Assembly (NCBI GenBank): GCA_019694955.1
Contig: JAIBAX010000010.1
Location: 1 to 64,000 of the forward strand
DNA length: 64,000 nt
Source: Chitinophagales bacterium
Lineage (GTDB): Bacteria > Bacteroidota > Bacteroidia > Chitinophagales > JADIYW01
Reading direction: 5' to 3'
Positions 1 through 61,490 of the stretch are shown piece by piece; position 1 is the first letter of the stretch, and each line of letters starts with the position of its first letter. The position numbers were made by a program, and so were the translations under genes. Under the pieces are notes generated by a model. The model searched no databases, had not been told where the DNA came from, and saw only the letters and a list, made by a program, of their open reading frames with translations.

Positions 1-109
1 GTTGATGTCTATCGTTTCCGGCAATAAAATGCATATCTTATTTTTTTATCAAGATACGAAAAAGTTAAGTTGATTTATGCTATTTTTACCAACAGATTGT
101 GGGAGGTAT
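1..109 (-). repeat. Outer end of an intron-remnant repeat block
   Basis: This stretch matches 4265-4373: both contain CAATAAAATGC or TAATAAAATGC, then a T-rich run, ATCAAGATA, GATTTATGCTATTTTTACC and AGATTGTGG. At the second site the block lies directly beyond a group II intron-like 3' end, so the window probably begins inside another copy of that unit. Strand follows the intron-like reading direction. Confidence 0.5.
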
Positions 110-1123: not shown

Positions 1124-1282
1124 ATGAAAAAAAGTGTAAAAATAGGACTTGATTTTATTATTGACAAACTGACCAATTCTATTGAAAATGTAGTAACAGG
1201 TGCAATGCATGTTGGTGGACGAATTATGATTATTGACACAATTGCCGCATTAAAATTGTTAAATAAATATTTTCCATTATGA
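1124..1282 (+). pseudogene. Internally deleted toxin/acetyltransferase-like remnant
   Basis: The 52-aa frame joins an N-terminal piece (FIIDKLTNSIENVVTG) to a C-terminal piece (GGRIMIIDTIAALKLLNKYF). From memory, these resemble the two ends of a Bacteroidota protein of roughly 170 residues that is GNAT-like and often paired with a small antitoxin-like partner. The middle appears to be missing in frame. The stop overlaps the next start (ATGA at 1279-1282), so the pair is translationally coupled like a toxin-antitoxin operon. The family assignment needs a database search. If it is wrong, this is simply a 52-aa unknown. Confidence 0.45.
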
Positions 1283-1446
1283 AAACAAAATCCAAAGAAT
1301 TAGATGTAGATTTTATTGGTGGACAAGATAAACCGCTGACAAAAGAAGAACAATCTGCTATTACTGCTTTTATCAAGCAACTAAAAGAGAAACAAAATAA
1401 AAGTGGCAAACAAAAGTCTTTAAAATCAGACAAAGAACTTGCATAA
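1279..1446 (+). CDS. Small antitoxin-like partner protein
   Basis: The 55-aa product has the core VDFIGGQDKPLTKEEQSAI followed by a lysine-rich tail. The 'DFIGGQ...LTKEE' pattern is one I associate with the short partner of the preceding family in Bacteroidota. It starts inside the stop codon of the upstream remnant (ATGA overlap). If the partner is inactive, this may be an orphan antitoxin still being kept. It is followed 13 nt later by another intron fragment. No membrane or secretion signal is seen. The function is inferred, not shown. Confidence 0.5.
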   Translation: MKTKSKELDVDFIGGQDKPLTKEEQSAITAFIKQLKEKQNKSGKQKSLKSDKELA

Positions 1447-1540: not shown

Positions 1541-1855
1541 TGTTGTTACTAAAAAATTTACCACCTTGCAACTTGCTAAACCTTTGGGGCTAAGGGACTT
1601 TAACCCTCCGGAAAATAAAAGAACACACCCACTAATAAGCCACCAAAAAAATTGAATCCTCCAAATAAATTTGCATCTTTAAATTTTTTCAATAACTTTA
1701 ACAAGCGTGTGGCGAAGCGCACACAAGCGCTTGGCAAAAAAGCGGGTTCAATGGTTGATTGAACATTCTACCTCGTATCAACGTTTGTACTTGGTCGACA
1801 GTTTAGTACTTCGAAATCCGCTTCTTCGCCAAGCCCCAAACCTTTAGACGTAGCT
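1541..1855. other. Gap of 315 bases with inverted repeats
   Basis: I see no gene here. Near 1700-1845 there are GC-rich inverted segments (GCGTGTGGCGAAGCGCACAC, a hairpin, then GCGCTTGGC, matched later by CTTCGCCAAGC) immediately upstream of the next gene. They look like a recombination-site or hairpin remnant at a cassette boundary, but they do not give a clean integron attC site by eye. No convincing promoter is visible. Confidence 0.35.
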
Positions 1856-2987: not shown

Positions 2988-4067
2988 ATGGGACAAAATG
3001 CACCACTTTATCATTTGGAAAAACTTCCACCGCTAAGAGAAAAAGTGGAAACCATTGAAATTCTTAGACAAACAAACAAATCCACTGCTGCACTAGCTGA
3101 ATTGAAAGGTATTGCCAAGACAATTCCAAACCAAGCAATGCTGATTAATGCTATAGTTTTACAGGAAGCGAAAGATAGTTCAGAAATAGAAAATATTATT
3201 ACAACCCAAGATGAGCTTTATAAAGCATTGACTGCTAATAAGGCTCGTATTTCTCCAGAGACCAAAGAAGTTGTAAATTATCTTAGAGCAATATTTCATG
3301 GATATGACCTTGCTAAAAGTCAAGGATTTTTAAGAGTAAATGACATTATTCGTATTCAGCAAGAACTCGTTGATAATACAGCAGGGATTAGAAGTACTCC
3401 TGGAACTGTTTTAAAAAATGATACGACTGGGGAAATAGTTTATACCCCACCACAAGACAAAACAGAAATACTTGACTTACTGACAAATTTTATTTACCAC
3501 TTTAATCAACAAGATGATTTGTCCCCATTGATAAACTTGGCAATATTGCATTACCAGTTTGAAAGCATCCACCCCTTTTATGACGGTAATGGTAGGACTG
3601 GTCGGATTTTAAACATCTTGTATTTGATACTTAACGAATTGATTGATGTTCCAATTTTATATTTGAGTTCCTATATAATTGCTAATAAACCAGAATACTA
3701 TCGGTTGTTGAATCAAACTAATCGGAAAGGAAAATGGGAAGAATGGATAATGTTTATGCTTAAAGCAGTCGAAAGTACTTCAAAAGATACCATCACAAGG
3801 ATTACTAATATTAAAAACCTCCTTGATTCGACAATAATTATCGTTCAAGAAAAAACTCCAAAGTTATATAGAAAAGAACTGGTTGAATTACTATTCGAGC
3901 AACCATATTCGAAAATTGAATTTGTGGTAAATAAATTAGGTGTGGAAAGAAAAGCCGCTTCCCGATATTTAAAAGAACTTGAAAATATCGGAATTGTTGA
4001 ATCTCAGAAAGTTGGTAGAGAAACTTTGTATATAAATAATGAATTAATTGAAATACTGAAACAATAA
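2988..4067 (+). CDS. Fic family protein (AMPylase-type) with C-terminal winged helix
   Basis: Fic enzymes transfer AMP or related groups to protein hydroxyls. The 359-aa protein has the complete catalytic motif HPFYDGNGRTGR (about residues 195-206), with the catalytic His and the nucleotide-binding Asn/Arg intact. SSEIEN at 64-69 fits the N-terminal auto-inhibitory helix motif ([ST]xxxE[GN]) of self-inhibited class II Fic proteins. Residues about 285-350 look like a winged helix-turn-helix, as in Fic proteins that may regulate their own transcription. A single polypeptide therefore contains toxin-like activity, inhibition and a DNA-binding module. The target is unknown. It sits between two intron remnants and has its own promoter. 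Confidence 0.92.
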   Translation: MGQNAPLYHLEKLPPLREKVETIEILRQTNKSTAALAELKGIAKTIPNQAMLINAIVLQEAKDSSEIENIITTQDELYKALTANKARISPETKEVVNYLRAIFHGYDLAKSQGFLRVNDIIRIQQELVDNTAGIRSTPGTVLKNDTTGEIVYTPPQDKTEILDLLTNFIYHFNQQDDLSPLINLAILHYQFESIHPFYDGNGRTGRILNILYLILNELIDVPILYLSSYIIANKPEYYRLLNQTNRKGKWEEWIMFMLKAVESTSKDTITRITNIKNLLDSTIIIVQEKTPKLYRKELVELLFEQPYSKIEFVVNKLGVERKAASRYLKELENIGIVESQKVGRETLYINNELIEILKQ

Positions 4068-4080
4068 TACACAAACCACC

Positions 4081-4373
4081 AATCGAGTAGTTCGGCTCAC
4101 CACTGCACATATACTGTGGTTCGCCCATGGATGGGGATACAGCTCTAAGGTTCATACCATTTGGCAATAAAACCAAGTTTTGCTAAGTCCATTGATCTAC
4201 GAAAGCATCCATGAACCAAATAGGATTATTTGCCGCAATCCTATCGTCGAGGGAGTGGAATTGGCGTTCTGTCTATGTCTCTGGTAATAAAATGCGTGTT
4301 TCTTTTATTATCAAGATATGAAAAAGTAAAGATGATTTATGCTATTTTTACCATGAGATTGTGGTGGTTTTTC
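4081..4373 (-). mobile_element. Group II intron remnant, copy D, with distal block
   Basis: AATCGAGTAG starts at 4081 and is followed by a shortened domain V/VI region (CACATATACTGTGGTTCGCC) and the shared ATGGATGGGGATACAGCTCTAA segment. The unit continues to about 4373, where the block shared with 1-109 lies. A small hairpin (AGGATT/AATCCT) sits near 4220-4243. No coding sequence is visible inside. Confidence 0.45.
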
Positions 4374-4429: not shown

Positions 4430-4942
4430 ATGGACATTAAAGAAATACCGATTGACAAGCTAAAGGACATTGAACTTTTTGACATTATTATTTTGCATCA
4501 CGGTTTTGAAACATACAACCCTGACTATTATTTTATAGTTGAAACGGGAACTAAGGAAAATGTCGGACGATTTAAAATCCAATTCACCCATTGCTTTGAC
4601 CTGACCTATAGACACAAATTTGCCGACATTAAATTCCCTGACCTAATTCGTAAGTCTTGGACGGATGACTTAATTTCCTCTGATGTTCCTCAAAATGAAA
4701 ATGCCTATTGGTGGGGACAAGGTTTTACAAATGCTTATCCAGGGTTTTCTTACGATCCCGATAACGTAAAAGCAAAAGAAATGGCAGAAATTACAGGCAG
4801 ACCTATGTATGCGATCCATTTGGAAACAGACCATTATGAAATAAATTTTGTGTTCCACGACTTTAGATATATATTTCTAAATCCAGACACATCTATTTCA
4901 GACAAAGTATTTATTCCGACCAAAGACTTTAAATTCAAGTGA
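4430..4942 (+). CDS. Hypothetical protein (170 aa)
   Basis: I do not recognise this family. The product is rich in aromatic residues, with conserved-looking clusters such as NAYWWGQGFTNAYPGFSYDP and HDFRYIFLNP. It has no signal peptide, transmembrane segment or obvious nucleotide-binding motif. Its alternating beta-strand pattern is like that of small immunity or toxin-neutralising proteins, but that is only an impression. It lies between two intron-like fragments in the accessory block, and its upstream region carries the same distal block as the gene at 150. The start is the first in-frame ATG, with no clear ribosome binding site. Confidence 0.6.
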   Translation: MDIKEIPIDKLKDIELFDIIILHHGFETYNPDYYFIVETGTKENVGRFKIQFTHCFDLTYRHKFADIKFPDLIRKSWTDDLISSDVPQNENAYWWGQGFTNAYPGFSYDPDNVKAKEMAEITGRPMYAIHLETDHYEINFVFHDFRYIFLNPDTSISDKVFIPTKDFKFK

Positions 4943-4956
4943 GAAAAACTTAGCAC

Positions 4957-4979
4957 AATCGAGTAGAAGGCCCTGCCAA
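4957..4979 (-). mobile_element. Group II intron remnant, copy E (terminal stub)
   Basis: Only AATCGAGTAGAAGGCCCTGCC is left, corresponding to the extreme 3' end and one arm of the domain VI-like stem. The rest has been replaced by a truncated gene tail. Confidence 0.4.
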
Positions 4980-4988
4980 AACCACCAA

Positions 4989-9089: not shown

Positions 9090-10022
9090 TTGCCACGAAT
9101 GCACGAATAAGTTTTTAGTCATTAGTCATAAGTCATTAGTAACAAAAGCCAGTGAACAGTAAGCGACATTCCCAATGCGAACCATCTTCAAATGCTCACA
9201 TTCCCAAATTTTCAAATTCCCACATCCCACTAAACTATCTTTGCCACGAATGCACGAATGAGTTTTAGTCATTGGTCATAAGTCATTAGTAACAAAAGCC
9301 AGTGAACAGTACAGCAACATTCCTAACGCACATTGTGACAGTTGTCAAAACCCAAATTTCCGCAAACTGTGAACCGTGAACATTTTCCCATTCTCAAATT
9401 TCCAAATTTCCATGAACTGTGAACCGTCAACCGTGAACAAAATTCGTCCAGCGATATTCGTATTGCACACTGCGACTGTTGTCAAAACGCAAATCGCCGT
9501 GAACCGTCATCCGTGAACATTCCCACATTTTCACATTCTCAAATTCCCACATCTCCAAATTGCCATGAACTGTGAACCATGAACAAAATTCGTCCAGCGA
9601 TATTCGTATTGCGTCTTGCGACTGTTGTCAAAACGCAAATCGCCATGAACCGTCATCCGTGAACATTTTCACATTTTCACATTCTCAAATTCCCACATCT
9701 CCAAATTGCCATGAACTGTGAACCATGAACAAAATTCGTCCAGCGATATTCGTATTGCGTCTTGCGACTGTTGTCAAAACGCAAATCGCCATGAACCGTC
9801 ATCCGTGAACATTTTCACATTCTCAAATTCCCACATTTCCAAATCTCCATGAACTGTGAACCGTGAACCGTGAACCGTGAACATTCCCACATTTCCAAAT
9901 CTCCAAATTGCCATGAACCGTGAACCGTCAACAAAATTCGTACAGCGATATTCGTATTGCACACTGCGACTGTTGTCAAAACGCAAATCACCGTGAACCG
10001 TCAACCGTGAACCGTGAACAAC
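9090..10022. repeat. Composite repeat field, about 0.9 kb
   Basis: This gap carries no gene. It holds two copies, about 151 bp apart, of a block starting TGCCACGAATGCACGAAT (9091, 9242) with AGTCATTAGTCATAAGTCAT. These are followed by four blocks containing GCGATATTCGTATTGC (starting 9451, 9597, 9743 and 9945; spacing 146, 146 and 202). Between them lie strings of CCGTGAAC words and CACATCTCCAAATTCCCA words. The same words recur near 35000, 48400-48800 and 61380. The last bases form the end of the ABC ATPase gene. A minus-strand frame through 9774-10004 is only a read-through of the repeat. Confidence 0.85.
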
Positions 10023-10729
10023 TTGTCCACTTTCCGAATCTGATCATTTGCCTTGTCCGTTTCTATCAAACCATCCCTCATGCGAATAATCCGATGCGTA
10101 TGCAGGGCAATATCTTCCTCATGTGTAACTACTACCAACGTATTCCCGGCTTCATGTATTTGTTGGAATAACTCCATAATTTCGTACGAAGTTTTTGTGT
10201 CCAAATTCCCTGTAGGCTCATCGGCAAGTATTAACGAAGGCTTGTTCACCAATGCCCTCGCCACTGCTACACGCTGCCGCTGCCCACCGGAAAGTTCATT
10301 GGGTCGGTGCTTCATCCTGTCGCCCAAACCAACCGATTCACAAGCCTGCTCCGCCCGCTCCCGACGTTCCTTTTTTCCCATACCGGCATAAATCAACGGC
10401 AAAGCCACATTATCTACTGCCGATAACCTCGGAATAAGGTTAAAAGTTTGAAAAATAAACCCTATTTCTTCATTGCGTACCTTCGCCAACTCATTATCCG
10501 ACAACTTGCTCACATCGCGCTGCCGCAAAAAATAACGACCCGCAGTAGGCGTATCCAAACATCCTATCAGGTTCATCAGCGTAGATTTACCACTTCCGGA
10601 AGGACCCATTAAGGCGACATACTCATTTTTAAGAATCACCATATCAATACCTTTCAACACGGTAAGCACTTCTCTACCCATGTAAAAATCTCTTCTAATA
10701 TCCTCTAAACGGATGATTTCTTCTTGCAT
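10001..10729 (-). CDS. ABC transporter ATP-binding protein (MacB/LolD type)
   Basis: The 242-aa ATPase has Walker [10 protein letters not shown] (about 42-50), Q-loop FQTFN, signature [10 protein letters not shown], Walker [10 protein letters not shown] and the switch His in VVVTHEED. The order and spacing match the MacB/LolD/FtsE-like group that works with FtsX-type permeases; no permease gene is next to it. It overlaps the gatC stop by one base (TAATG), so it is translationally coupled to gatC. Its final codons (LFTVHG and stop) are read from the CCGTGAAC repeat, so the natural C-terminus has been replaced or extended by repeat sequence. The catalytic core is complete and should be functional. 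Confidence 0.92.
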
Positions 10730-34999: not shown

Positions 35000-35240
35000 G
35001 GCAGTTATTAGTACAGCGATGTTCGTATTTCGTTTTGCAACCATTCTCACATTTCCAAATTCCCAAATTTTCAAATCTCCACATCTTCAAATTCCCAAAT
35101 CTCCGTGAACCGTGAACAAAATTCGTCCAGCGATATTCGTAATGCGTCTTGCGACCATTCTCACATCTCCAAATTCCCAAATTCCCACATCTCCAAATTC
35201 CCACATCTCCAAATCTCCCTGAACTGTGAACTTCTCAAAC
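34995..35240. repeat. Composite repeat field, two units
   Basis: Two units of CAGCGATGTTCGTATT/CAGCGATATTCGTAAT, then GCGACCATTCTCACATCTCC-type strings, TTCCCAAAT words and CCGTGAACCGTGAAC. This is the same vocabulary as in 9400-10020, in the same orientation. It lies between folP and the atpD promoter. Confidence 0.8.
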
Positions 35241-45955: not shown

Positions 45956-46216
45956 GTCGTCTAACCGTCTTGCGTTTTTCGTATGTCGTAGTGCGACAGG
46001 TTTTTTTGTTAGTTATTGAGAGAATTTTCCACGTCTCTAATATTTTCACATTTTTTGTACCAAAAAATCATCTCTCTTATCATACATCATAAAAAGATAA
46101 GCTTATTTTTGAATAAAAATAAATTGCTATTGAGTAGCACATATTTAACCCTATTGTGTTGGATATGTGAAATTTTGTGGTAGATTTAAATAAGTTATAG
46201 TATATTGAAAACGACT

Positions 46217-46933
46217 ATGAGAAAGCCAATCAAAATAGGAGAAATTGAATTTGATACTAAAAAGGACGCACTAATTTATTATAAGACGATTTTGAATGCT
46301 TATGACCTTGGAAAAGAATTAAATACAACCGACTTTAATAAAATCATGAGCTTACTTGAAACTCATCCTAGGGTAAAAGAAAAAATTGGAGTTGGTATCG
46401 ATAAAGTAAGAGTTGCAAAAGTTCAATTCAACACGAAATCTTTTGAGCTGGTAAGAACAGATGGCTCTACAGCGTTTTTCTCATATATAAAAAGAATAAA
46501 CGCGCCAAAAACAAATTTTACAAAGTTTAGTGAAGCGTGCAGACAGGCAATTCAAGACGATTTAAGAAGTGTAAAACTTGAATATTTTGAAAAACACTCA
46601 AAAAATGGACAAGTTAAATGCCAAGAATCAAAAGAACTTGCCAAATATTCAGAACTATATATTGACCATAGACAACCCAATACTTTTTCAGTAATTGTCG
46701 ACAGATTTGTAGAATTAAACAGCATTGACATTGAGAAAATAGAATATATCCTAGTTGATGGTGGACCAAATGAACTCAAAGACGAGAAACTAAAACAGGA
46801 GTTTAGAAAGTATCATAAAGACAAAGCGAATCTGAGAATCGTAAAAAAGGATTTAAATTTAGGTCGTTCATTTCAAGCGAAAGTAAATAGACAGAAAAAG
46901 GACTTGACAATTAAGGATTTAAAGATGAAATAA
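46217..46933 (+). CDS. DCL (DUF3223) plus HNH-like protein
   Basis: The 238-aa protein starts with a DCL/DUF3223 domain (residues about 1-90: IGEIEFDTKKDALIYYKTIL, then LLETHPRVKEKIGVGIDKV and the FELVRTDGSTAFFSYIKRI pattern). The second half has YSELYIDHRQPNTFSVIVDR, which resembles the DH-x-P core of HNH-like nuclease domains. This combination is frequent in mobile or defence-linked bacterial proteins. ATG 46217 is preferred to the TTG at 46205. Directly downstream lies a decayed group II intron fragment, as in the block at 1-5000, so this gene probably belongs to the same class of captured accessory genes. Confidence 0.75.
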   Translation: MRKPIKIGEIEFDTKKDALIYYKTILNAYDLGKELNTTDFNKIMSLLETHPRVKEKIGVGIDKVRVAKVQFNTKSFELVRTDGSTAFFSYIKRINAPKTNFTKFSEACRQAIQDDLRSVKLEYFEKHSKNGQVKCQESKELAKYSELYIDHRQPNTFSVIVDRFVELNSIDIEKIEYILVDGGPNELKDEKLKQEFRKYHKDKANLRIVKKDLNLGRSFQAKVNRQKKDLTIKDLKMK

Positions 46934-46934
46934 A

Positions 46935-47025
46935 AAAAACGGCTTCTAATTGACTATACCACCATCAAAATCCAACAGAGTGCGCAACCCACACCACCAT
47001 CCGTAAGGGTCATGTACATGACTAC
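46935..47025 (-). mobile_element. Group II intron remnant, copy F (strongly decayed)
   Basis: ACGGCTTCTAATTGACT..., AACAGAGTGCGCAACCCACA and CCACCATCCGTAAGGGTCAT align with copies A and C (GGGTGCGCGGCTCACACCACCG, GTACGGGTCA). The domain V hairpin is broken by changes. The remaining gap to dinB (47026-47171) has no gene. Confidence 0.4.
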
Positions 47026-47171
47026 CCTAATTAATGAAAATTACTACACAATTGAGCAATAAATGCAATTTTTTGTAGCTAAATTTGAAATCAAATGGCA
47101 CACAACTTCACGCCCACCCTTTACCGCACCATTCGTGTTTCCGCGAATGGCTACACAACGCATACACTAAA

Positions 47172-48359: not shown

Positions 48360-48361
48360 TT

Positions 48362-48930
48362 TGAGAAGTTTACAGAGATTTGGAAATTTGGAGATTTGAG
48401 AATGGTCGCAAGACGCAATACGAATATCGCTGGACGAATTTTGTTCACGGTTCACGGAGATTTGGGAATTTGGAGATGTGGAGATGTGGAGATGTGGAGA
48501 TGTGGAGATGTGGAGATGTGGAGATGTGAGAATGAAAAAATGTACGGTTCACGGAGATTTAGAGATGTGAGAATGGATTTGGAAATGTGAAAATGTGGGA
48601 ATTTGGAGATGTGGAGATGTGGAGATGTGAGAATGGGTCGAATTACGCAATACGAATATCGCAAGACGAATTTTGTTCACAGTTCACAGATGACGGTTCA
48701 CGGACGATTTGGAATTTCGAGATTTGAGAATTTGGAGATGTGAGAATTTGGAAATGTGGAGATGTGAAAATGCAAATGACTTCTTGATCGCAATACGCTG
48801 TACTGTGGACGTCCCGATATATCGATAAATCGGGATATGGACAAAATTTAAAAAAGTCGCAATACGCATTACGCTGTATAAAAATCTCTGTGAACTTTGT
48901 GTATAAACTTCGTGAACGTTGTGGTTAAGC
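48362..48930. repeat. Composite repeat field with octamer run
   Basis: This 0.6 kb gap has no gene. It carries the same words as at 9400-10020 but in the opposite sense (GATGTGGAGATGTG, AATACGAATATCGC, GTTCACGGTTCACGG). At 48472-48527 the octamer GGAGATGT is repeated seven times without a break. Near 48812-48836 there is a CCCGATATATCGATAAATCGGG-like palindrome. From 48840 to 48930 a block ending GTGAACGTTGTGGTTAA is the reverse complement of 61330-61395. Confidence 0.85.
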
Positions 48931-61329: not shown

Positions 61330-61490
61330 TAACCACAAAGTCTGCGAAGTTTATACGCAAAGTTCACAGAGATTTTTGTACAGCGTATTGCGAAGTCAAT
61401 CTTCAAATTTCCAAATCTCCAAATCTCCGTGAACCGTAAATTTTTTCATTCTCACATCTCCAAATTCCCAAATATCTGTGAACCGTGAAC
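61330..61490. repeat. Composite repeat field
   Basis: TTAACCACAAAGTCTGCGAA starts a block that is the reverse complement of 48865-48930; it is followed by TACAGCGTATTGCGAAG, then TTCCAAATCTCCAAATCTCC and CCGTGAAC words. It ends a few bases before the stop of the CocE-type gene. Confidence 0.8.

Follow-up and report, generated by a model that had tools for sequence, protein, structure and literature searches.

A gene of the DUF3223 (DCL) family, designated here unit F, is followed by a decayed copy of the repeat that stands behind each unit of an array 42 kb away, at 0.15–5 kb of the same 64,000-nucleotide stretch of Chitinophagales DNA (the window). The question is how such a gene-plus-repeat unit came to stand alone, and whether the repeat marks captured genes. 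Unit F is rather probably a single decayed integron-type cassette carrying the DUF3223 (DCL) gene, with an attC-like site invaded by an intron of the group IIC-attC type. Feature coordinates are collected in Table 1.

Table 1. Features of unit F and of the array in the window.
Feature	Positions	Strand	Evidence or remark
Array unit 1 gene, 215 aa	150–797	+	no Pfam family over cut-off; stop overlaps copy A boundary
Intron copy A: domains VI–V 796–900, D1–D4 piece 924–1022	796–1022	−	nhmmer E 1.9e-34 with a profile that includes copy A; E 1.9e-19 with a relatives-only profile
Array unit 2, two small ORFs, 1124–1282 and 1279–1446	1124–1446	+	
Intron copy B, 3' end (1460–1543) to candidate 5' end	1460–1724	−	E 1.2e-14, B outside profile; 5' end by inspection
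attC-like hairpin behind copy B	1725–1841	+	−45.1 kcal/mol for the bottom strand, long outer stem; no shuffled control
Array unit 3 genes: 98 aa; DUF2199, 177 aa	1856–2689	+	PF09965 E 2.4e-46
Intron copy C	2688–2818	−	BLAST with copy A, nhmmer
Array unit 4 gene, Fic family	2988–4067	+	PF13784, PF02661, PF21248
Intron copy D, partial	4081–4147	−	nhmmer E 4.8e-5 for 4106–4147
Array unit 5 gene, YxiG-like	4430–4942	+	PF24712 E 2.4e-13
Intron copy E, about 26 nt of 3' end only	4957–4982	−	weak, nhmmer E 0.006
Possible cassette start of F, GTTATAGTATATTG..., 23 nt before ATG	46194–46221	+	weak; start matrix rank, pairing with own end
Unit F gene, DUF3223 (DCL family), 238 aa, GC 31.1%	46217–46933	+	Pfam PF11523 E 7.1e-18
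Cassette-end sequence of F, AAAAAACGGCTTCTA	46934–46948	+	12.6 bits, matrix from 78 other ends
Decayed group IIC intron F, middle deleted	46949–47103	− (intron sense)	nhmmer E 1.8e-6, F outside profile
Intron F 3' end (domains VI–V)	46949–47020	−	
Intron F candidate 5' end, GGCACAC	47097–47103	−	by eye, found after inspection, no chance test

The preliminary description of this DNA held that remnant F follows its gene as copies A–E follow the array genes, and this stands. The remnant starts 15 nt past the gene stop, with its boundary at 46948. An nhmmer profile of the own-genome copies A, C, C6a, C6b, and C6c, which excludes F, matches 46945–47020 on the plus strand (E 1.8e-6, 23.3 bits), the fourth-ranked match in the window behind A, C, and B. 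A profile restricted to copies from other genomes recovers part of F (46980–47020, E 1.6e-3). The similarity could in principle be chance or low-complexity noise, given that F is strongly diverged and partial; when copy A serves as the query for plain BLAST against the own genome, F and D are both missing from the matches (E up to 1), and the Rfam intron models have no match at F. However, the best E in the reversed window is 2.8, so the alignment is far better than chance, and the match has the correct strand, position, and end motif. Noise is thus scarcely credible, and the failure of BLAST with copy A indicates instead that F is a decayed copy.

In minus-strand orientation, the repeat corresponds to the 3' end (domains V–VI) of a group II intron. 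No Rfam model matches the window at gathering thresholds. The own copy C6c reaches 30.7 bits (E 0.004) with RF00029 (domains V–VI), below the gathering score of 40, and the D1–D4 piece of copy A, upstream in the intron sense, reaches 22.5 bits (E 0.18) with RF02001, below the gathering score of 32. A search of the own genome for a maturase found none (best GIIM match E 0.38), and the own copies therefore look like remnants. Among seven relatives carrying the intron, three have a maturase domain over the cut-off. Two end types occur, which read AATCGAGTAGAG (AGAG) and AATCGAGTAGAC (AGAC) on the gene strand and whose 3' ends are otherwise nearly alike. The reverse transcriptases (RTs) of one relative with each type were compared against the PDB. 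The RT of the AGAG-type intron, from relative G054, scores 391.6 bits with the GsI-IIC RT, 164.1 with LtrA, and 123.7 with the 6me0 maturase; for the AGAC-type intron of Gelidibacter gilvus the corresponding values are 341.3, 135, and 112.8 bits. Since both RTs are closest to the GsI-IIC RT, the intron belongs to class IIC.

In the own genome, the copies form two rows, one on contig C42 (which holds this window) and one of three copies on contig C6. Single copies are found at F on C42 and on contigs C46, C9, and C92. Gene-plus-remnant units thus occupy several unlinked places, as had been proposed. Tabulating the genes 5' of the copies across the genome, as the preliminary description suggested, gave a plus-strand ORF ending ≤45 nt from the boundary for 10 of the 12 own copies, the exceptions being C9a and C92. 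These ORFs were called mechanically; copy B was counted by its small ORFs, and the ORF of C6a is a 92-aa frame. Genes named by Pfam before own copies are DUF2199, Fic, YxiG-like, DUF3223, SMI1/KNR4, and RelA/SpoT.

Some intron remnants are separated from the following cassette start by a second repeat (window 38–102 and 4300–4364), which recurs elsewhere in the genome (C6:85412–85531, C86:3103–3239, and C11:37369–37464). Its minus strand seems to encode the N-terminus of a transposase of the IS1182 type, as though these sites had also served an insertion sequence. A Flavo-1 RNA match (L002 1115–1252, on the own contig C6 near 85 kb; 38.5 bits, gathering score 42) adjoins the second cassette row. 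The end of contig C42 (105880–106006) is the reverse complement of its own bases 1–127 (100%), so that the assembly probably broke at this repeat and the array may continue. Related intergenic repeats, with 8-nt GGAGATGT-like and 146-nt units, occur at four places in the window (9113–10059, 35007–35231, 48360–48788, and 61389–61490).

The wider behavior of the intron was followed by a pattern scan of one genome per species in 84,980 species, which yielded a sample of at least 121 matches in at least 119 stretches. Among the matches listed, 80 of 82 AGAC-type ends come from Bacteroidota, whereas 35 of 37 AGAG-type ends come from Bacillota or Mycoplasmatota. One AGAC-type end (L176) lies in a record titled Robiginitomaculum (Pseudomonadota), reflecting either transfer or a misbinned contig. 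The two types also differ in their placement. An ORF points into the copy, with the intron antisense behind the gene, at 70 of the 76 scorable AGAC copies among the matches listed, and 45 of these 70 have the ORF ≤30 nt away. For the AGAG type the count is 15 of 36 among the matches listed, which is no gene-orientation preference. These counts omit copies with <250 nt upstream (6 AGAC, 1 AGAG) and two copies with other letters (A, T).

The units before AGAC copies appear, from their sequences, to behave as integron-type cassettes. The last 7 nt before the intron plus AC were taken as the cassette end, and the reverse complement was sought within 3 kb upstream as a GTT start. A perfect 9-nt start matching the unit's own end was found for 32 of 72 AGAC units among the matches listed, against a mean of 0.99 and a maximum of 4 in 200 rounds with shuffled ends. 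The AGAG control gave 1 of 35 among the matches listed (shuffled mean 0.85). For the 43 AGAC units among the matches listed that have an ORF ending ≤60 nt away, to which this test was restricted, pairing averaged 9.9 of 13 positions; shuffled ends averaged 7.5 (0 of 500). In 45 units among the matches listed, selected for matching at 9 or more of 10 positions, pairing occurs at position 11 in 7% and at positions 12–14 in 62–78%. The R' consensus GTTRRRY is present in only 2 of the 32 paired starts among the matches listed. In the window, pairing over the six units is weak overall (own start and end, mean 8.0; foreign pairs, 7.2), and only units 1 and 5 reach at least 10. Even there, the start region of unit 1 pairs equally well with the end of unit 2, and the match of unit 5 lies outside the expected start.

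Beyond the 5' end of the intron, ACA follows directly in 17 of 22 distinct cases among the matches listed, and the remaining cases are partly ambiguous through a 2-nt repeat. In the clearer cases, what follows folds into a long hairpin that terminates in AAACC|GTT or a similar sequence. This hairpin has an attC-like anatomy, with the intron in the R'' box. Its R''/L'' and L'/R' arms are clear behind copy B and at part of 18 relatives' loci but are not recognizable at F. The median folding z-score is −2.9 (n = 18 among the matches listed, single-base shuffles). Four of the 18 score above −1 (L121, L184, L190, and L198), and these hairpin cores, at least, were cut at the wrong GTT; the L045 core forms no outer stem. 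Under a permissive folding criterion, 17 of the 32 paired starts among the matches listed follow a hairpin arm, as do 164 of 640 GTT sites taken at random from these loci. At only about twice the background, this suggests that an attC-like site precedes part of the starts and probably not the rest. Walking downstream from 12 cassette starts beyond introns to a perfect 9-nt partner end succeeded for none of the 12 (shuffled mean 0.2), although 7 of the 12 had <2.3 kb left to search. This result counts against simple chains of these cassettes.

Unit F can be set against this background. Its gene was initially described as DCL/HNH-like; the DCL assignment is sound, and no HNH Pfam model matches at E up to 0.1. 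The gene is compositionally foreign. It has the lowest GC content among the 39 mechanically called ORFs of at least 200 aa in the window (mean 38.9%, sd 3.6), and its 31.1% compares with 30–35% for the array genes, 46% for the flanking umuC, and 44% for the 405-aa gene. The 15-nt sequence between stop and intron is of the cassette-end type. Its score is reached by a fraction of 2e-5 of window positions (about 2 per 100,000) and ranks first among 60 frame ends in the window, and the sequence played no part in finding F. The start is far less distinct. The best candidate ranks 68 among 2229 GTT sites by the start matrix and pairs with the F end at 7 of 13 positions, no better than with the ends of other units. 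For F, the 3' intron boundary alone is clear, and no attC arm, R', or GTT is recognizable between F and umuC. When five window proteins (F and four neighbors) were compared by tblastn with the umuC loci of six relatives, taken with 1.5 kb on each side, umuC alone was found, and hence no empty site was seen. DUF3223 relatives occur in two genomes besides the own among 298 searched, and their loci, where read, have no obvious intron or attC.

These gaps leave some room for a simpler history without any cassette: the DUF3223 gene of F would be resident or have been acquired separately, and a IIC intron would have inserted behind it at a transcription terminator, the usual target of class IIC introns. 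The AGAG copies fit such targeting, having neither an orientation preference nor cassette pairing among the matches listed, and in relative G007 the intron 5' end, by inspection, directly follows a terminator-like hairpin. The missing attC arm and the failed start pairing of F point the same way. However, the F end is the best cassette-type end among those frame ends, the gene is faced by the intron 3' end rather than the 5' end, and its base composition matches that of the array genes. An insertion behind an ordinary gene is therefore improbable. A foreign-looking lone gene that ends in the tail of an intron targeting cassette sites is most likely a stray cassette.

Under the cassette reading, F would have arrived as a cassette, presumably moved by a site-specific recombinase acting at G|TT. 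An intron of the group IIC-attC type would then have inserted antisense to the gene, at TGT|T just behind it, and later lost its middle. The array at 0.15–5 kb would consist of several such cassettes in succession, every one bearing an intron remnant, and more would lie on other contigs. The intron itself would move separately, by reverse splicing into the bottom-strand hairpin of attC. The moving unit is most plausibly an integron-type gene cassette, whose attC-like site the intron parasitizes.

An intron-driven capture model, cited from Leon and Roy (2009) in the portion of PMC7923331 available, has been proposed for IIC-attC introns. In this model, the intron inserts at a terminator and at attC, and recombination between copies makes a new cassette. 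A remnant accompanies each of the five array units in the window, as capture by the intron would predict, yet repeated invasion would leave remnants too, and the matching starts and ends that lie outside the intron in other genomes are not required by the model. Capture of this kind is very unlikely here; the intron more likely parasitizes cassette ends than captures genes. The earlier proposal that the remnant marks captured genes is partly supported, in that the gene of F is compositionally foreign. The intron as capture agent is unsupported, and the remnant would mark only those cassettes that were invaded.

The recombinase was sought through the integron integrase, IntI. The own genome has no TIGR02249 match over the cut-off (best E 8.3e-21), and none of 32 carrier genomes has IntI at E 1e-45 in a search that held no positive control. 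The only positive came from a search of 99 genomes, in which IntI was found in one, G029 (421.9 bits). In this relative from the same order (L074, contig C40, 113–185 and 3592–4530), an attC-like hairpin lies at the end of the contig, 3.4 kb from the integrase; a simple attC finder was too noisy on G029 to define an array. An overlooked cassette variant that another recombinase moves is therefore conceivable.

A broader proposal, doubtful at present, is that Bacteroidota carry a widespread and largely unrecognized integron-like system, with private complementary ends for each cassette, an R' other than GTTRRRY, sites that are single or in rows, and, in host genomes that lack a recognizable IntI, another recombinase. 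Cassette ends would then consist of GTT plus about six further nucleotides, with more pairing beyond; cassettes might sit singly at ordinary chromosomal GTT sites or in rows, and the group IIC intron remnants would be the tag that exposes them. If the cassette reading is true, F is a lone cassette beside a translesion-type polymerase gene, and intron remnants with the AGAC-type end provide a simple tag for Bacteroidota cassettes missed by the GTTRRRY consensus. The question of which recombinase moves these cassettes would also become testable. A literature search found no paper joining attC, integrons, or group II introns with Bacteroidetes or the term Flavobacteri.

Three known systems can be compared with this one. 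Group IIC introns of Bacillota target terminators, according to the part of PMC4424553 available, and have nearly the same 3' end as the AGAC type. Unlike the AGAC type, they have no orientation preference (15 of 36) and almost no pairing (1 of 35) among the matches listed. Group IIC-attC introns have TTGT/T within R'' as their insertion site, run in the orientation opposite to that of the genes, and occur also in CALINs, attC clusters without an integron integrase, as described in the accessible text of PMC7923331. As in these introns (S.ma.I2 type), the RT here is closest to a class IIC RT, insertion is beside an attC-like hairpin at TGT|T and antisense to the cassette gene, and the intron is present where no IntI is found. 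Unlike them, the present introns have Bacteroidota hosts (80 of 82 AGAC among the matches listed), and the own genome has remnants only, with no maturase. Few integrons are reported from Bacteroidetes by IntegronFinder 2.0, with a single complete one in Bacteroidetes proper, in Salinibacter, in the portion of PMC9024848 available. The present units depart from a complete integron in that the 32 carriers lack IntI at the E-value given above, and from integron cassettes and CALINs in the rarity of an R' of GTTRRRY (2 of 32 paired starts among the matches listed). They agree with integron cassettes and CALINs in that the array lines up small, unrelated genes that all point the same way, and in that some units of related genomes have GTT starts complementary to the unit's own cassette end, and some have attC-like hairpins.
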